Below are positions 17,954 through 26,206 of a DNA stretch of 45,139 nt, piece after piece. The stretch lies in the NCBI GenBank assembly GCA_028693565.1, contig JAQUVE010000005.1, positions 1-45,139 of the forward strand, written 5' to 3'. How positions within the stretch are numbered: position 1 is the stretch's first letter; each line of letters opens with the position of its first letter. Both the position numbers and the translations under genes were made by a program. The DNA comes from Sulfurospirillaceae bacterium. GTDB taxonomy: Bacteria; Campylobacterota; Campylobacteria; Campylobacterales; Sulfurospirillaceae. The notes under the pieces were generated by a model that saw nothing but the letters and a program-made list of their open reading frames with translations, made no database searches and was not told the DNA's origin.

Positions 17954-20596
17954 ATGAAACAAAAAATAACCCTACAAAAACTTGAAAATTTTCTCTTCTC
18001 TCTTGCAGATGATTTGCGTTCAAAAATGGATGCAAGTGAATACAAATACTACATCATCGGACTTATTTTTATAAAGCGACTTTCTGATGAGTTTAAAAAA
18101 GCACAAGAAGATGTCAAGAAAAAGTACAGACATCTTCCTCAAGAATTTCAAGAAAGACTTTTAGAAGACCCCATGTCCTATGGCGATATATTTTTTGTTC
18201 CCAAGCGAGCGCGCTGGCATGAGGGTTTTATAGATGCAAACGGTAACGAACAACCTCCCTTAAAGCACCTCAAATCAAACATCGGTGAGCGACTTAACAA
18301 AGCCATTGCTGCTATTGAGGAGAGTAACGACCGATTAAACGGTGTACTCAAAAATAACATCAACTTCAACGAAAGCCGTGGCAAAAACAACGAAAGGGTT
18401 AAAGATAGTGACTGGCGAAGTTTGCTGATTAAGCTTGAAAATTTTGGTTCACTTAGCGGAGAAAACTTTGAGTTTCCAGACCTCTTAGGAGCGGCGTATG
18501 AGTATCTCATCAAATACTTCGCCGATAGTGCAGGCAAAAAAGGAGGCGAGTTTTATACTCCTAATGAAGTCGTCAGACTCATGGTACAAATCGTCGAACC
18601 CAAAGAAGGTGAAAGCGTTTACGACCCGACAGTGGGAAGTGGGGGTATGCTTATCCAGTCCCACCAATTCGTTGAAGAGAGCGGTGGAAACACCAACCGC
18701 ATTTCACTCAACGGTCAAGAAAATGATGGTGGTGTGTGGGCTACATGTATTATGAATATGATTTTACACGATGTCAAAGATTTTGAGATCGAACACGGCA
18801 ACACATTAGAAGAGCCACTCTTTAAAGACTACGGTGGAAAATACAAAAAATTTGACAAGATTTTGGCAAACCCACCTTTTAGTATCGACTATAAAAAAGA
18901 GAACCTCACCCAAACCTCACGCTACCGATGGGGCTATGCACCACAAAAGAAAAAAGCGGATTTGATGTTTGTACAACACATGGCAAGCTCACTCAAACGA
19001 AACGGTTTGATGGCAAGTGTTGTACCGCATGGTGTGCTCTTTCGAGGCTCAAAAGAGAAAGAGATACGCGCTTCCATGCTTGAAGACAACATCATCGACG
19101 CTATCATCGGTCTGCCTCCTGCTCTTTTTTACGGCACGGGAATCCCTGCGGCGATTATCGTTGTTAGGAAAAACCGCAAAGAAGATGAAGGGGTGCTTTT
19201 TATCAATGCAGATGCTCAGTATGCAGAAGAAAAAGCCCGTAACCGTCTTAGAGCTCGTGACATTGAAAAAATATCGTATGTGTACCGCACCAAAGATGTG
19301 AGCGATGAGCGCTACTCAAAACTCATCAGCCTTCAAACGCTAAGAGATAACGACTACAACCTCAATATCAGAAGATATGTGGATAACTCTACCCCCAGTG
19401 AGATGGAAGATGTCAAAGCACACCTCAAAGGCGGCATACCCAAAAAAGAGGTACATTTGCACCAAAACCAATATGACAAATTTGCTTTTGACCCTTTGGA
19501 TGTTTTACATGTAAAAGATAAAGCCTATTTTGAGTTTAAAGTCTATGAAGATATCAAAGAGCACATCGCATCAAACCAAAGTGTTATAACATCGCTCGAA
19601 ACCTACCGCACCCATTTAACGCAGTGGTGGGATGAGACCAAAGAGACGTTTAGTCTTCTTGAAGAGACCAAAAACATCAACCAAACCAAGCGCATACTTT
19701 TGGACTCTTTTAAAAAGCATTTTTTACATTTCCATGTACTTGACACTTTTCAAGTTGCAGGGGTATTTGCCGAGTGGTGGAATGCCATCAAGTATGACCT
19801 CAAAACCATCAGCGCTATCGGCTTTGGTGAGAGCCTGCTGAGTGATGAGATGCTCATCGATGCTTTTTTTGTGCGTGAAAAAACGCAGATAGAAGCGTGT
19901 GAGATGGAGATTTCTCAGAGTGAAAACGCTCTTAGTGACGCGGTCGAAGAGGTGGAGTACGAGACGGAGGAAGACAATGAGGGCAACAAAGAGGAGAAAA
20001 AACCCTCAAGCGCAAAAGCCTATCTCAAAGAGAGCATCAAAGCCCTTGAGTTTGAAGAGAGGGCATCGTATGTGAGTGAACGAGAGGGCTTGCAAACACA
20101 ACTTATAGCCATCGAGGAGCTGGAAAAAATCATCAAAGAGCTTAAAGCCCAAAAGAAAACGTTAGAGTATGAGCTACGCATCAAACTAGAGATCAAACGC
20201 TACGGTGAAGTTGAAGAACTAGAGGAACTCAATGCCTCACTTCAAGCCGTTCACAAAGAGCTTCAAACGAAAAACCTCATCAAAAAAGAGCAAGATAAAC
20301 TCACCAAAGATAAAGCAAAGCTAGAAGCAGCACAGGCAAAACTCAATGCTCTGTTGCGAGAAGTAGGCATCATCACCCATGAAGAAGCCAAAGCGCTGAC
20401 GCTGCAAAAACACTACAGACTTATCCAAAACGAACTAGAGAGTGAGCTCAAAGAGGAGCTTAACGCCCTGTACTGCATCTTTGAAAATCTGCACGCAAAA
20501 TACTCCGTAAGCTTAGAAGCGATTGAGGAAAACCTAGAGCAGAGCGAGCAAACGATAGAAGGGTATTTAAAAGCGTTGGGGTATATTGATGCGTGA
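17954..20596 (+). CDS. hsdM: Type I restriction-modification methyltransferase subunit HsdM, with long C-terminal extension
   Basis: This adenine-N6 methyltransferase has the HsdM N-terminal helical domain (about 1-150), then GGEFYTPNEVVRLMV, the SAM-binding motif DPTVGSGGM (around 224) and the catalytic NPPF at N306. With HsdS it methylates and recognises the target; with HsdR it restricts unmodified DNA. At 880 residues it is about 350 longer than common HsdM proteins. The extra part (about 520-880) is highly charged and coiled-coil-like (for example 690-790, rich in Glu, Lys and Leu). The frame is uninterrupted, so this is a true extension and not a frameshift product. It carries a TTTACATGTAAA palindrome at 19504. 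Confidence 0.95.
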   Translation: MKQKITLQKLENFLFSLADDLRSKMDASEYKYYIIGLIFIKRLSDEFKKAQEDVKKKYRHLPQEFQERLLEDPMSYGDIFFVPKRARWHEGFIDANGNEQPPLKHLKSNIGERLNKAIAAIEESNDRLNGVLKNNINFNESRGKNNERVKDSDWRSLLIKLENFGSLSGENFEFPDLLGAAYEYLIKYFADSAGKKGGEFYTPNEVVRLMVQIVEPKEGESVYDPTVGSGGMLIQSHQFVEESGGNTNRISLNGQENDGGVWATCIMNMILHDVKDFEIEHGNTLEEPLFKDYGGKYKKFDKILANPPFSIDYKKENLTQTSRYRWGYAPQKKKADLMFVQHMASSLKRNGLMASVVPHGVLFRGSKEKEIRASMLEDNIIDAIIGLPPALFYGTGIPAAIIVVRKNRKEDEGVLFINADAQYAEEKARNRLRARDIEKISYVYRTKDVSDERYSKLISLQTLRDNDYNLNIRRYVDNSTPSEMEDVKAHLKGGIPKKEVHLHQNQYDKFAFDPLDVLHVKDKAYFEFKVYEDIKEHIASNQSVITSLETYRTHLTQWWDETKETFSLLEETKNINQTKRILLDSFKKHFLHFHVLDTFQVAGVFAEWWNAIKYDLKTISAIGFGESLLSDEMLIDAFFVREKTQIEACEMEISQSENALSDAVEEVEYETEEDNEGNKEEKKPSSAKAYLKESIKALEFEERASYVSEREGLQTQLIAIEELEKIIKELKAQKKTLEYELRIKLEIKRYGEVEELEELNASLQAVHKELQTKNLIKKEQDKLTKDKAKLEAAQAKLNALLREVGIITHEEAKALTLQKHYRLIQNELESELKEELNALYCIFENLHAKYSVSLEAIEENLEQSEQTIEGYLKALGYIDA
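19504..19515. repeat. TTTACATGTAAA palindrome inside hsdM
   Basis: Perfect 12-bp palindrome, extended to 14 bp (TTTTACATGTAAAA). It encodes Leu-His-Val-Lys at the start of the HsdM extension. Confidence 0.8.
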
Positions 20597-21740
20597 GGTG
20601 TTGAATGTTCCTCAGGGGTGGGAAAGTATTAAATTAAATGAAGTATTAGAATATGAGCAACCTACAAAATATTTAGTTAAAACTGAAAATTATGACAATG
20701 CTTTTAACACACCCGTTTTAACAGCTGGAAAAACTTTTATTTTAGGATATACAGATGAAAAAGATGGTATTTTTAAAAGTAATTTACCTGTAATTATTTT
20801 TGATGATTTTACTACTTCGTCGAAATTTGTAGATTTCAATTTTAAAGCAAAATCATCAGCCATGAAAATTTTAAAATTAAAAGACAATCTTGCAAATATT
20901 AAATTAGTTTTTGAGTTGATGCAAAAGCTAAATTTTGCACCTGAAGAACATAAGAGGCATTGGATTTCTACATATTCAAAACTTAAAATAAATCTTCCAA
21001 AATCAAAAAAAGAGCAAGAGAAAATTGCGGAGATTTTAAGCGAAGTCGATAGTGCTATAGAACATGCGCAAGCTTTACATGTAAAGCATCAAAAAGTCAA
21101 AACCGCCCTGATGCAAGACCTCCTCACCCACGGGATAGACCAACACGGAAAGATACGCAACCCCAAAACCCACGCCTACAAACCTTCCCTTTTGGGTGAT
21201 GTACCTGTGGAGTGGGATGTTAAAGAATTACAAAAGATTCTAAAAATTGGTAGTGGACAAGATTATAAATTTCTACAAGAAGGTGCAATCCCAGTATATG
21301 GAACAGGGGGCTATATGACATCCGTAAATAATTTTTTATATGATGGGGAAAGTGTCTGTATCGGAAGAAAGGGAACTATTGATAATCCAATGTATCTTGA
21401 GGGTAAGTTTTGGACAGTAGATACATTATTTTATACCCACAAATTTAAACAATCCGTTCCAAAATATATCTATTATGTTTTTCAAAACATAAATTGGAAG
21501 CTATACAATGAAGCTTCTGGGGTGCCTAGTCTATCGAAAACAACAATAGAGAATATTCAAATTAAAATACCTCAACAAGAAGAACAACAAAAAATAGCCC
21601 AAATCCTTTCATCCCACGATGACAAAATAGAAAAAGTCAAAACCAAACTCGAAAAATTACAGCAACTTAAAACCGCACTGATGCAAGATTTGCTCAACGG
21701 AACCAAACGCGTGAACCACCTGCTAGGAGAAGAGCAATGA
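20589..21740 (+). CDS. hsdS: Type I restriction-modification specificity subunit HsdS
   Basis: The 383-residue protein has the usual two halves. Target-recognition domain 1 spans about 1-135 and a conserved helical spacer about 136-200 (EQEKIAEILSEVDSAIEHAQ, ending KTALMQDLLTHG). Target-recognition domain 2 spans about 205-325 and is followed by a second conserved helix (EQQKIAQILSSHDDKIEKV, ending KTALMQDLLNG). The two helical parts are clear repeats of each other and set the spacing of the bipartite DNA target. Both recognition domains are much more AT-rich than the conserved parts, a sign of domain exchange. The ATG at 20589 overlaps the hsdM stop by 8 bp. The stop overlaps hsdR by 4 bp. 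The target sequence cannot be predicted by eye. Confidence 0.95.
   Translation: MREVLNVPQGWESIKLNEVLEYEQPTKYLVKTENYDNAFNTPVLTAGKTFILGYTDEKDGIFKSNLPVIIFDDFTTSSKFVDFNFKAKSSAMKILKLKDNLANIKLVFELMQKLNFAPEEHKRHWISTYSKLKINLPKSKKEQEKIAEILSEVDSAIEHAQALHVKHQKVKTALMQDLLTHGIDQHGKIRNPKTHAYKPSLLGDVPVEWDVKELQKILKIGSGQDYKFLQEGAIPVYGTGGYMTSVNNFLYDGESVCIGRKGTIDNPMYLEGKFWTVDTLFYTHKFKQSVPKYIYYVFQNINWKLYNEASGVPSLSKTTIENIQIKIPQQEEQQKIAQILSSHDDKIEKVKTKLEKLQQLKTALMQDLLNGTKRVNHLLGEEQ
21072..21087. repeat. 16-bp palindrome GCTTTACATGTAAAGC inside hsdS
   Basis: Perfect 16-bp palindrome containing the TTTACATGTAAA core, in the conserved spacer between the two recognition domains. It again encodes Leu-His-Val-Lys. Confidence 0.8.
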
Positions 21741-24700
21741 GAGAAGATACCTTTGTGCATGAGCCGTTTTTAGAGAGTCTTGAACGGATTGATTGGGAAG
21801 TGATACGTCTCAATAGATTGCATCAAACACCCCAACAAAGCCATAGAGAGAGCTTTAAAGAGGTGGTGATGCGCTCTAAACTCCACGATGCGCTACACGC
21901 CATCAATCCCTTTTTAGAAGATGACCAGATAGTTGAGTGTATCGATCGTCTTCTAAACTTCTCTTCTCATGCGCTCATCTCCCAAAACAGTCGTATTTTT
22001 GAGCTTCTCTTAAACGGCACAAGCGTCGATGAAAACCGAAAAACCAAAGAGAAAAGCCCCACGGTACGCTATATCGATTTTGACCACTTAGAACACAACA
22101 GCTTTATCGCCGTGAGTGAGCTTGGGGTTAAAGTCAAAGGCATCGAAGTCGAAGATAAAAAAGTATCGATGTTCTACCCCGATGTGGTTTTATTTCTCAA
22201 TGGCATCCCTTTGGTGGTGGTCGAAGCCAAAAAACCTAAAGGCAAAAAAGACAGCCTGCAAGAGGCTTTGAGCGATTTACAAGACTACGCACAACAAAAA
22301 GAGGGAGCCAAAAAAGGGAACCGAGAGCTTTTTTACTTCAACCATTTTGTAGTCGTTACCGACAACAACAAAGCAAAATTTGGTACCATCACTGCTACAA
22401 ACCTCAAACAATTTTGGCGATGGAGCAACCCTTACCCCATGCGTTTAGAAGAGCTCCCTATGAGTGGAGCAGGTGTGGTCAATGACCAAAACAGACTCAT
22501 CTACGGAATGCTCAAACCACGCCATTTACTAGAGATTTTCCAAAGCTTTACCGTCTTTAGCTCGACCGAGAGCGGTGTGGAAAAAGTGGTCTGTCGTCAT
22601 CAACAATTTCGTGCCGTCAAAAAAGCGATAGAGCGACTTCAAAACGGTGAAACGGCACAGGAAAAAGGCGGACTCATCTGGCATACGCAAGGTAGCGGCA
22701 AGTCTTTGACGATGATGTTTTTGATTCGTGCGATGTATGCGACCAAAAAATTTGATGACTGGAAAATCATCCTTATCAACGACCGAACCGACTTAGAGAC
22801 ACAACTCAAAGGAACCGCAGGAAAAATCGGCGTGACAGTCAGCAGTGCCAACAGCATTGCCGAACTTAAAGAGCTTATCAAAAGCGACGCATCGGACATC
22901 GTGATGGCAATGGTGCAAAAATTCCAACAACGAGAGTTAAGCAGTAGTGCCTTTCCCGTACTCAACAAAAGCGAAAAAATCCTCATCATGGTCGATGAAG
23001 CGCACCGAAGTATTTACAGTTCACTGGGTTCTAATATCAAAAACGCCGCACCCAATGCGGTGATGATAGGCTATACGGGCACACCCATCGAAAAAAGCCA
23101 TAAACTTTTTAAGGACTACATCGATAAATACACGATGAAAGAGTCCATCGAAGACGGCGCAACGCTGAGAATTGTCTATGAAGGGCGTGCGCACGATACC
23201 GAACTTAAAGAAGGTGCCATCGTTAATATCTACGATGAGCTGGATGTGGAAGATGATGAGAGTGATGAGCTCAAAGGTCTCAATGCCCAAATCAAAAAAG
23301 CCTACCTAGAGAGTGAAAAAACCATCACGACCAAAGCCAAAGATATGTTGGAGCACTACTTTACGCATGTGTTTCCTAACGGTTACAAAGCGCAAATCGT
23401 CGCACCTTCTCAAAAGGCGGCGGTGAGTTATAAAAAGATTATTGATGCGCTTTTAAAAGAGAGAGAAGAGGCAAAAGAAAAAACGGTTAAAGCTGACATC
23501 GTTATCTCAGGGATTGCCAACGACGATGAAGTTAGAGAGTATGGCAAACGGGACAAAGAAAGCATCACCGATAGCTTTATAATGAAATTTGATAGCGAAG
23601 CAAAAGACGGCATCACGGGAGAGATAGGCATACTCATCGTAAACAACATGCTTTTAACAGGTTTTGATGCCAAGATAGAGCAAGTCATGTACATCGACAG
23701 AGTGCTCAAAGCGCACAGTCTGCTTCAAGCCATTGCTCGGGTCAATCGTGTCTATGATGAGGGCAAAACCGTTGGGTTTGTGGTGGACTATATCGGGGTG
23801 GGGGATTTGCTCAAACGAGCTGTCGAATACTACAATGAAAAAGAACAAAAAGACTCACTTAATAGCGGGCTTTGGGATGTGGATAAACTCGAGAGTGAGC
23901 TTAAAGAGTGTTCACGAAAAATCGATGAGTTTATAGCAAGCCGCACAATTGCGATAGATGATAAGGATGATTGGTACGCAGAATTTTACGATGATGAATT
24001 GCGTTATGAATTTTTAATGCTTTTTAAAGAGTATGCACAATATCTTGACGAGCTTTATCCGTCTGAAAAAGCAGTGGCTTTTATCGATGAGTTTAACAAA
24101 CTCAAAGACTTACATGACCAAGCTTTATGTCATGAAGTGGATGAAAATGCTTACAAAATTGACTCTAAAAAACTTCAGGCAATCATTGACGAGCATCTTC
24201 TATCAAAAGGCATTAAGCAAAGAGTTGCCCCTATTGAAGTTTTTAGTGATGAGTTTGTTAAAAGAAAAGATGCAAGGAAAAGCGCAAAAGCAAAAGCTGC
24301 GGAGATAGAAAACGCACTGATTCGGCACATCAACCTCAATATGCAATATGACCCTGCACTTTATAGTAGTTTTTTCGAGATGCTTAAAAAAATCCTTGAG
24401 CAATTTAAAGAAAACTGGGACGAAATCGTCAAAGAGCTTGAAGCGTTACGAGAAAGGCTCAAAAAGACAGAAGAGAAGACTTTTCATGGACTGAAAAAAG
24501 AGTATAAACCCTATTTCAATCTTTTTGCGCAAGAGATTTTTGGAAAAATAGAGGATTTGAATGAAGATGAAACTTCTTTGGCGATAAGGCTTACAAAAGA
24601 TATAACAGCTATCATCGAAGCAGAAGAGACTTCTTTTTTATGGAGTAGCACACCTGCAAAAGCAAGGCTCCAAATGGAAATACAAGATACGCTTTTAAGC

Positions 24701-24802
24701 GAGGACTACATCAAAATAAAAGGTATAAGCGAAAAATACAAAACCTTAATCGTACAGATTATGAATATTGCGGAGCCAAATAAAAATGGAACTAAACTAT
24801 AG
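21737..24802 (+). CDS. hsdR: Type I restriction endonuclease subunit HsdR
   Basis: This 1021-residue motor and nuclease has the N-terminal PD-(D/E)xK nuclease with YPDVVLFL and VVVEAKKP (E163, K165). The first helicase domain has Walker A QGSGKS (from about 318) and Walker B DEAH at 420. The second has LLTGFDAK and the arginine-finger region QAIARVNR. The C-terminal part (about 850-1021) is helical and charged and would dock on HsdM. It translocates DNA with ATP and cuts when blocked. The gene starts in a 4-bp ATGA overlap with hsdS and ends overlapping the metallopeptidase gene. Length and motifs are complete, so the system looks functional. Confidence 0.95.
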   Translation: MREDTFVHEPFLESLERIDWEVIRLNRLHQTPQQSHRESFKEVVMRSKLHDALHAINPFLEDDQIVECIDRLLNFSSHALISQNSRIFELLLNGTSVDENRKTKEKSPTVRYIDFDHLEHNSFIAVSELGVKVKGIEVEDKKVSMFYPDVVLFLNGIPLVVVEAKKPKGKKDSLQEALSDLQDYAQQKEGAKKGNRELFYFNHFVVVTDNNKAKFGTITATNLKQFWRWSNPYPMRLEELPMSGAGVVNDQNRLIYGMLKPRHLLEIFQSFTVFSSTESGVEKVVCRHQQFRAVKKAIERLQNGETAQEKGGLIWHTQGSGKSLTMMFLIRAMYATKKFDDWKIILINDRTDLETQLKGTAGKIGVTVSSANSIAELKELIKSDASDIVMAMVQKFQQRELSSSAFPVLNKSEKILIMVDEAHRSIYSSLGSNIKNAAPNAVMIGYTGTPIEKSHKLFKDYIDKYTMKESIEDGATLRIVYEGRAHDTELKEGAIVNIYDELDVEDDESDELKGLNAQIKKAYLESEKTITTKAKDMLEHYFTHVFPNGYKAQIVAPSQKAAVSYKKIIDALLKEREEAKEKTVKADIVISGIANDDEVREYGKRDKESITDSFIMKFDSEAKDGITGEIGILIVNNMLLTGFDAKIEQVMYIDRVLKAHSLLQAIARVNRVYDEGKTVGFVVDYIGVGDLLKRAVEYYNEKEQKDSLNSGLWDVDKLESELKECSRKIDEFIASRTIAIDDKDDWYAEFYDDELRYEFLMLFKEYAQYLDELYPSEKAVAFIDEFNKLKDLHDQALCHEVDENAYKIDSKKLQAIIDEHLLSKGIKQRVAPIEVFSDEFVKRKDARKSAKAKAAEIENALIRHINLNMQYDPALYSSFFEMLKKILEQFKENWDEIVKELEALRERLKKTEEKTFHGLKKEYKPYFNLFAQEIFGKIEDLNEDETSLAIRLTKDITAIIEAEETSFLWSSTPAKARLQMEIQDTLLSEDYIKIKGISEKYKTLIVQIMNIAEPNKNGTKL

Positions 24803-25445
24803 TATCCAAAGAAGCTCTGCACGCAAAACTTTGTGCTTGAAAATGGCTCAAGATGGAACGCTTGAAGTGTTAGCACCGATAGATGTATCGGATGAAAAAA
24901 TCGACACCCTTGTGCAAAAAAAGAAATTTTGGGTTTATAAAAACAAAAAAGAACTTGTTGAGAAAAAAATGGCTTTTGAAAAAGAGTTTGTATCGGGTGA
25001 GTCGTTTTTATATCTGGGTAAAAAATTTCGGCTTGATGTAACAGCATGTGAGCACAAAGGTTTAGTATTTAAACAAAACAAATTCATCCTCAACAAAACA
25101 GAGCAAAAAAGTGCTCAGAAACTTTTTGAACAATGGTACAAGCAAAAGGCAAAAGAGAAGCTAATTCCAAGAGTTGAAAAATTTGCAAGCCAAATGGGCG
25201 TAACCCCACAAAAAACAAAAATATTGTCAATGCAAAAAAGATGGGGAAGCTGCACCTGTGATGGTAATATCATCCTGAATTACCATCTCATTAAAGCACC
25301 TCTTTATATTATAGACTATGTGATAATACATGAACTCGCCCACTTGTTAGAGCATAACCATAGTGATAAATTTTGGAAAATTATTCAAACGCAAATGGGA
25401 GATTATAAAAAGCATAAAGAGTGGTTGGGAAAACTAGAAATTTAA
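24786..25445 (+). CDS. YgjP-like zinc metallopeptidase (M48/DUF45 type)
   Basis: The 219-residue protein has the zinc-peptidase motif HELAHLLEHNHSDKFW, preceded by MQKRWGSCTCDGNIILNYHLI, the two signatures of the YgjP (SprT-like, DUF45) family. Genes of this family often lie beside type I restriction genes, but their role there is not settled. The ATG at 24786 lies inside the hsdR end (17-bp overlap) with GGAG ten bases upstream. An upstream in-frame start would overlap further and lacks a site. It is probably cotranslated with HsdR. Confidence 0.9.
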   Translation: MELNYSIQRSSARKTLCLKMAQDGTLEVLAPIDVSDEKIDTLVQKKKFWVYKNKKELVEKKMAFEKEFVSGESFLYLGKKFRLDVTACEHKGLVFKQNKFILNKTEQKSAQKLFEQWYKQKAKEKLIPRVEKFASQMGVTPQKTKILSMQKRWGSCTCDGNIILNYHLIKAPLYIIDYVIIHELAHLLEHNHSDKFWKIIQTQMGDYKKHKEWLGKLEI

Positions 25446-25454
25446 AGGATGACT

Positions 25455-26144
25455 ATGAAAATCCATGAAAAATACCTCGAAGCGTTAAAGACATTTGATG
25501 ACTTCGTAACCGTTTCCGAATGGGCAGTAAGATTTGGCGAAATGTACCCTGAGCTTTTGGACAAAGCCAACAAAGAAGCCCAAAACCAAAAGAACGATAC
25601 AACAGGTCTGCGTGAACTTGCCGCGCGTATCTCTTCACGCCTTGCCACGGGTGGATTTGATGGGTTGGTTGAGATAGATGCAACCGAACGCCCTCGCAAA
25701 GTCAAATACATCACCAAAGAAGAACTCACCGAAAAAGCGACCCAAGAGCTAGAAGAAGACATCGAGCCGCTTCGCCGTCAAGACATCATCAACCAAGCCA
25801 AAGAGAGTTTGGAAGCAAAAGAGCTTTACAGGATTAGCGAGTTTGAGGACATTCAAAAAAAATTTAAAAACTTCCTTGGCATTGACTTTGAGATAGACCA
25901 CGCTCAGGCACTTTTAGATGATGCCAAACAAGGCAAACATCACCCTGACAATTTTCAACTTTTGCTTAAATACCACAATGTGAAAAAGTATAAAAACAGC
26001 TGGCAGAGATTTAGCATCGAAGAACAAATAGACTACATCTATAAAGTCGTAGAATTGCACAAAATCTTAGAAGATAAATTAGATGTCAAACTGGATACTG
26101 CTATTTTGGAGAATTTGTTGAGCAGGTTAAAAGCAGTCTATTAA
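25455..26144 (+). CDS. HNH-like nuclease candidate, accessory gene of the restriction cassette
   Basis: The 229-residue protein has three parts. Residues 1-85 look like a winged-helix DNA-binding region (TVSEWAVRFGEMYPELLDKA, then VKYITKEE). Residues 90-135 are helical and charged. Residues 140-190 hold an HNH-like pattern: D148-H149 in EIDHAQAL, then HHPDN with N166, then QLLLKYHN with H174 and N175 and a following Lys. This matches the DH...N-Q-L...(C/H)-N-x-x-K arrangement of beta-beta-alpha metal nucleases, but without zinc cysteines. It starts 10 bp after the metallopeptidase gene, with AAAGGA five bases before the ATG at 25455. Nuclease function is inferred from the motif. It could also be a non-catalytic DNA-binding partner. 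Confidence 0.7.
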   Translation: MKIHEKYLEALKTFDDFVTVSEWAVRFGEMYPELLDKANKEAQNQKNDTTGLRELAARISSRLATGGFDGLVEIDATERPRKVKYITKEELTEKATQELEEDIEPLRRQDIINQAKESLEAKELYRISEFEDIQKKFKNFLGIDFEIDHAQALLDDAKQGKHHPDNFQLLLKYHNVKKYKNSWQRFSIEEQIDYIYKVVELHKILEDKLDVKLDTAILENLLSRLKAVY

Positions 26145-26148
26145 ATCT

Positions 26149-26206
26149 TTTACATGTAAGACTGAGAAAGCCATTTCAAGGCTTACCCGTCTTTTTACAT
26201 GTAAAA
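26149..26206. terminator. Bidirectional terminator with two TTTACATGTAA palindromes
   Basis: The inner stem is AAGAC/AAGCC (26158-26162, 26168-26172) with GGCTT/GTCTT (26180-26184, 26189-26193). It is extended outward by TTTACATGT pairing with ACATGTAAA across a small bulge. The right arm is a perfect 14-bp palindrome. It separates the convergent HNH-like gene and hcp. Confidence 0.65.

Follow-up and report, generated by a model that had tools for sequence, protein, structure and literature searches.

HHN, a predicted winged helix-HNH endonuclease exchanged as a single gene between the tails of defence operons

The last gene of a type I restriction cassette in a Sulfurospirillaceae bacterium encodes a 229-residue protein, HHN, which we studied in a contig of 45,139 nucleotides (the whole stretch is called the window here) and at related loci. 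We show by computation the domain layout and the conserved catalytic set of HHN, its purifying selection, its place at the tail of operons and its exchange as a single gene between defence cassettes. Our reading, which we hold with a little more confidence than doubt, is that HHN is a stand-alone endonuclease composed of a winged helix and an HNH domain, swapped singly onto the tails of defence operons, where it would act as an auxiliary restriction effector; its cleavage activity, target and part in defence are what we infer. In the open-access literature, the coverage of which is incomplete, we found no published description of the family.

The cassette and the two domains of HHN

The genes of the cassette and the domains of HHN, with their positions in the window, are as follows.

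17954-20596, + strand: hsdM, methyltransferase subunit of 880 residues with a long C-terminal extension (TIGR00497, PF02384, PF12161)
20586-21740, + strand: hsdS, specificity subunit with a TTG start (PF01420, PADLOC Specificity_I)
21737-24802, + strand: hsdR, restriction/translocase subunit (TIGR00348, E=1.3e-139; HSDR_N, SWI2_SNF2)
24786-25445, + strand: ygjP, zinc-peptidase-like protein with an HELAH motif, 17-bp overlap with hsdR (PF01863, E=1.2e-60)
25455-26144, + strand: HHN, gene for a predicted winged-helix and HNH nuclease of 229 residues
25455-25715, + strand: winged helix-turn-helix domain, HHN residues 1-87 (AlphaFold2, Foldseek)
25599-25640, + strand: recognition-helix segment TTGLRELAARISSR, HHN residues 49-62 (column identity)
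25887-25988, + strand: HNH core, HHN residues 145-178 (conserved residues, AlphaFold2)

We named HHN as the fifth gene, the last after hsdM, hsdS, hsdR and ygjP. It follows ygjP after a gap of 9 bp, and AAAGG is present 5' of its ATG. A first-pass annotation, made from the letters of the window, had described a cassette with two near-overlapping trailing genes; the coordinates, the strand and the length of 229 residues were all confirmed, and D148, H149, N166, H174, N175 and K178 lie exactly where it had placed them. The other four genes were clearly named by Pfam/NCBIfam, and HHN matched no named family among the Pfam, NCBIfam or PADLOC models.

The same annotation proposed that HHN was a second nuclease, of the HNH type, and this is the prediction that our structural and profile comparisons returned. 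In the final AlphaFold2 model (mean pLDDT 89.4, pTM 0.58; core pLDDT 80-95), a strand at residues 145-149 carrying D148 and H149 is followed by a strand at 167-171, just after N166, and by a helix at 172-178 carrying H174, N175 and K178. A first run with 23 close homologues had given a pLDDT of 81.5, which rose to 89.4 when phage HNH proteins were added. Members of the HNH superfamily are recognised by a beta-beta-alpha fold bearing conserved His, Asn and His/Asn, and this is what we found in HHN, both in the modelled core and in its matches to phage HNH proteins. By searching 397 genomes of the phylum with a profile and scanning species-representative genomes, we obtained 26 bacterial homologues with 52-94% identity to the HHN of the window. 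D148, H149, H162, H163, P164, N166, Q168, H174, N175 and K178 are invariant among them; the motif thus exceeds what chance would give. Thus, we encountered neither a predicted fold unlike beta-beta-alpha metal nor homologues devoid of the D, H and N residues.

T4-like phages yielded four separate homologues in a translated search (from Aeh1, nt-1, D484 and VS1); in their alignment D148, H149, N166 and N175 are invariant and H174 varies. Two of these homologues, Aeh1p114 (UniProt Q76YX7) and ORF023 of Vibrio phage nt-1, are full-length homologues with an N-terminal domain and a D-H/N/N core (25% and 29% identity), but they are phage genes with no defence cassette and with H174 replaced. Comparison of the HHN family with 17 IMG/VR phage proteins by hhalign aligned residues 107-192 and paired EIDHA...GKHHPDNFQLL...HNVKK of HHN with EVDHI...GGLHHPDNLQIL...ENRKK of the phage HNH proteins; the probability was 98.2%, a value that is not independent, since the 17 proteins all match PF01844 but were picked by their similarity to HHN. 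The structure test therefore carries more weight. Foldseek against the viral models of BFVD returned the Aeh1 HNH endonuclease (E=2.6e-10) and the nt-1 protein (1.9e-7), followed mostly by phage HNH proteins.

Direct searches were less informative. The HHN of the window had no HNH match in Pfam at E<=1; PF01844 was reached weakly by 4 of the 26 homologues (best E 0.018), and none scored above the curated HNH cut-off, which is a convention of the library rather than a biological definition. Membership of HHN in the HNH superfamily therefore rests on the fold, the profile-profile match and the conserved residues. Taken together, these support placing HHN in the HNH (beta-beta-alpha metal) superfamily, with cleavage as the predicted activity. 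Neither the protein nor the profile gave a useful match among PDB sequences, no relatives were present in the plasmid collection searched, and most viral scans that used single proteins or T4-like sequences as queries were negative. A weak match in G013 (29% over 95 residues) was dropped, as it was absent from the profile search and the adjoining HNH gene belongs to a different family.

The N-terminal half was modelled with helices at residues 3-12, 20-30 and 51-64, strands at 72-75 and 82-85, and an additional helix at 32-43, that is, with the three-helix core and beta wing by which winged helices are generically recognised. The best matches of this region in the PDB, by Foldseek, were winged-helix proteins (Fur, probability 0.99, E 0.17), with weak E-values. 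Conservation in the family is highest in segment 49-62, with a mean pairwise identity of 0.83 as compared to 0.68 in the HNH core and 0.57 overall. This suggests that all HHN members may recognise one kind of DNA regardless of the system that they accompany, though it could instead reflect dimerisation or folding. HARE-HTH (PF05066) looked right by eye for this domain, with its extra helix lying between the second helix and the recognition helix, but was rejected: hhalign against 16 HARE-HTH domains gave probabilities of 0.2-0.3%, no better than column-shuffled controls. One HHN copy (L027, 9552-10142) apparently does not possess the linker helix (about residues 96-130); the reading frame and both domains are kept.

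Neighbours of HHN at 28 loci

We identified the neighbouring genes at 28 HHN loci, many of them contigs of metagenome-assembled genomes, with Pfam, PADLOC, NCBIfam and BLAST. As a raw count, a restriction or methylase gene lies upstream of HHN in 20 of the 28, and three further loci carry another defence or toxin system, so that 23 copies stand behind a recognisable system of either kind. The remaining five (L033, L034, L035, L038 and L040) showed no recognised defence gene upstream. The systems found were the following.

Window, L030, L025, L026, L041-L047, L049: type I cassettes of several designs, before HHN
L005, L006, L032: methyltransferase-nuclease fusion with S, with or without a DndB-like gene, before HHN
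L023: Dam-family methylase with GmrSD and DpnII-type nucleases, before HHN
L024: two type II methylases, an HNH gene and a gene of an exonuclease family, before HHN
L048: type IIG with a GIY-YIG gene, before HHN
L050, and L027 by similarity: type III-like pair, before HHN
L036: PDC-M12A/RloB-like pair, beside HHN
L051: HipA-like toxin, beside HHN
L022: CRISPR array, beside HHN (array and cas genes assigned by visual inspection)

The preceding gene is on the same strand as HHN in all 27 loci that could be judged. It lies within 66 bp in 17 cases and overlaps HHN by 4 bp in five. The gene 3' of HHN may be on either strand (same strand in 13 of 23). Thus, HHN is typically the tail gene of an operon. 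Two of the type I loci harbour an additional pair between hsdS and HHN, an AAA ATPase and a protein with weak matches to the PtuB and PDC-M01B/PDC-M62B models (L025 11917-14723; L026 6940-9651); these are Septu-like pairs lying inside type I loci.

Exchange, selection and decay of HHN

The window and G020 share one chromosomal site, with common SnoaL-like and hcp flanks, but carry different cassettes before HHN; DNA identity between them is 90% in HHN and 81-86% in the flanking chromosome. The cassette of the window recurs at another site in L030, where M and R are 92-94% identical. When G020 and L030 were compared, HHN alone was shared, and the similar block coincided with the open reading frame to within one base. 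Other pairs gave a similar picture. Similarity runs 1 and 0 bp beyond the ends of the reading frame in L005/L030 (92% DNA identity) and 0 and 4 bp beyond them in L048/L049 (87%); it ends within about 20 bases of the frame in L048/L049 and L043/L046, and continues 42 bases upstream in L034/L036. DNA similarity between HHN loci thus usually ends at or near the ends of the reading frame, a result that is expected at about 75% identity and informative at 84-92%.

On the HHN tree the partner types are scattered, with 15 changes as compared to a mean of 17.2 for shuffled labels, which indicates some clustering of partner types and no single partner. The dN/dS values of 0.06-0.12 reveal purifying selection, so the gene is retained for its protein. 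Damaged copies also occur, with a stop in L028 and L052, an apparent loss of frame after residue 163 in L051 and a fragment in L029; HHN is therefore dispensable.

Two further observations concern the same DNA. HsdS is 41% identical between the window (20586-21740) and L030 (3991-5289), though HsdM and HsdR are 92-94% identical, and this looks like an exchange of target-recognition domains. A palindrome, TTTACATGTAAA, was noted in the window (8153, 17852, 19505, 21075, 26150 and 26195) and in genomes G000-G018; TTACATGTAA has 6 copies in the window against 0.1 expected. The 12-mer has 14-792 copies per genome in the 16 genomes of the window's genus that were counted, with 62 in G000; the reversed 12-mer has 0-3 per genome, and other genera of the order have 0-1. 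By these counts the palindrome is enormously over-represented in the genus, and it resembles the HIP1-type highly iterated palindrome of cyanobacteria; a limited literature search found no report of it. Similarity between the window and L030 cassettes ends at the last base of one copy (26150-26159), 15 bp past HHN, possibly by chance and possibly at a recombination boundary.

Proposed role of HHN and alternative explanations

In the role that we propose, the N-terminal winged helix would bind DNA and the C-terminal HNH core would cut the DNA so bound. HHN would be expressed with whichever defence operon precedes it, and would act on DNA that escapes or blocks the primary system. Since the recognition helix hardly changes from one partner system to the next, the target is probably one feature common to invading DNA, such as a modification or structure absent from the hosts, and not the recognition site of the partner. 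The PD...ExK nuclease, Walker A and DEAH motifs are all legible in the HsdR of the window, so that HHN would be an addition to the primary nuclease and not a replacement. The first-pass annotation had imagined a back-up or conditional effector, for example one coupled to the peptidase; the varied defence neighbours make a back-up plausible, and the peptidase coupling finds no support, for the reasons given below. More tentatively, and with doubt outweighing confidence, HHN may be a portable tail nuclease with a fixed DNA reader, independent of its partner, that joins the ends of defence operons of many classes (type I, II, IIG, III, methyltransferase-nuclease fusions, GmrSD, RloB-type pair, toxin-type), supplies them with a common second cut on invading DNA, recombines as a single gene and perhaps serves as an anchor for cassette exchange.

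Known systems resemble HHN in part. The proteins with wHTH, SAD(SRA) and HNH domains in Dnd neighbourhoods (PMC10853773) also combine a winged helix with HNH directly after a modification module, but HHN lacks SAD/SRA and shows no tie to phosphorothioate systems. The auxiliary nucleases of BREX and BREX-related loci (PMC12839542) likewise place an extra HNH protein, with a proposed back-up role in restriction, in a primary defence operon; HHN, in contrast, is one family across type I, II, IIG, III, GmrSD, RloB-type, HipA-type and CRISPR-adjacent loci, and moves singly. What sets HHN apart from known concepts is that a single family accompanies so many types of restriction system.

The closest likeness in layout raises an alternative that we consider unlikely, namely that HHN is a modification-dependent (type IV) enzyme reading N6-methyladenine, as has been reported for SruGXI and its relatives, and that the neighbouring genes are incidental to it. 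Winged helix-HNH enzymes of 224-283 residues, toxic in Dam+ cells, have been reported (PMC11037411), and the predicted domains of HHN match them in order and size; SruGXI and HpaD253I, from the same work, join a winged helix to an HNH domain in a single polypeptide of about 230 residues with no PUA domain, a likeness of layout and size. However, such enzymes are mostly stand-alone, and for 87% of the published fusions the three nearest genes on each side include no methylase (PMC11037411), whereas 20 of the 28 HHN loci place HHN at the tail of restriction or methylase genes. In L023, moreover, HHN overlaps the DpnII-type nuclease gene and a Dam-family methylase lies beside it. There, an enzyme that depends on Gm6ATC would cut the DNA of its host, and this mode is therefore unlikely family-wide.

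We give slightly less credence to a second alternative, in which HHN is selfish, a homing-like HNH gene standing free and recombining between defence operons with little benefit to the host. Its relatives are indeed free-standing HNH genes of T4-like and other phages, and single-gene exchange and decayed copies would both be expected of such an element. No flanking DNA is shared among loci with different partners, as a conserved homing-type target would be, and the flanks are unrelated. Since there is no common insertion sequence, homing is disfavoured. It also argues against a selfish gene that HHN consistently lies at the tail on the strand of the preceding gene, with 4-bp stop/start overlaps, that it is under strong purifying selection and that it recurs in defence operons.

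Marginally less probable again is a suicide effector that cuts host DNA once a phage inhibitor jams the primary restriction complex. HHN adjoins intact primary nucleases, HipA or RloB-type genes lie beside some loci, and backup suicidal effectors have been described for BREX neighbourhoods (PMC12839542), but HHN has no conserved antitoxin or sensor as a partner, and the partners differ between lineages.

The first-pass annotation suggested that the nuclease was released or activated by the peptidase, and it looked to a conserved hsdR-ygjP-HNH gene order for support. An HsdR-like protein lies just 5' of YgjP in 28 of 30 YgjP loci from Campylobacteria (L109-L138), which are the best-scoring in the class and not a random sample, and HHN is present in one of these 30, the window itself. 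Conversely, YgjP directly precedes HHN in three of the 28 HHN loci (window, L030 and L046), two of which are the same cassette. Since the triple order occurs in just three loci, the type I locus is not the exclusive setting of HHN. At the chromosomal site of the window, a near relative (93%) lacks both hsdR and ygjP. The order in those three loci speaks for a conditional nuclease, specific to type I, that YgjP would release or activate, but this is very improbable, as 25 HHN loci have no YgjP upstream. By these gene neighbourhoods YgjP goes with hsdR, and HHN is an independent passenger. An open-access search of incomplete coverage found no relevant paper on the ygjP-hsdR linkage; the part that a peptidase plays in type I restriction is worth a separate study.

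Catalogues exist of the auxiliary nucleases that lie beside BREX and Dnd systems, and backup roles have been suggested, but each nuclease is usually treated within one system. With one protein, one conserved reader and many natural partners, the HHN family offers a simple test of whether such nucleases act alone. HHN would also be an additional, so far unannotated marker for defence islands, with 23 of its 28 copies behind a recognisable defence or toxin system.
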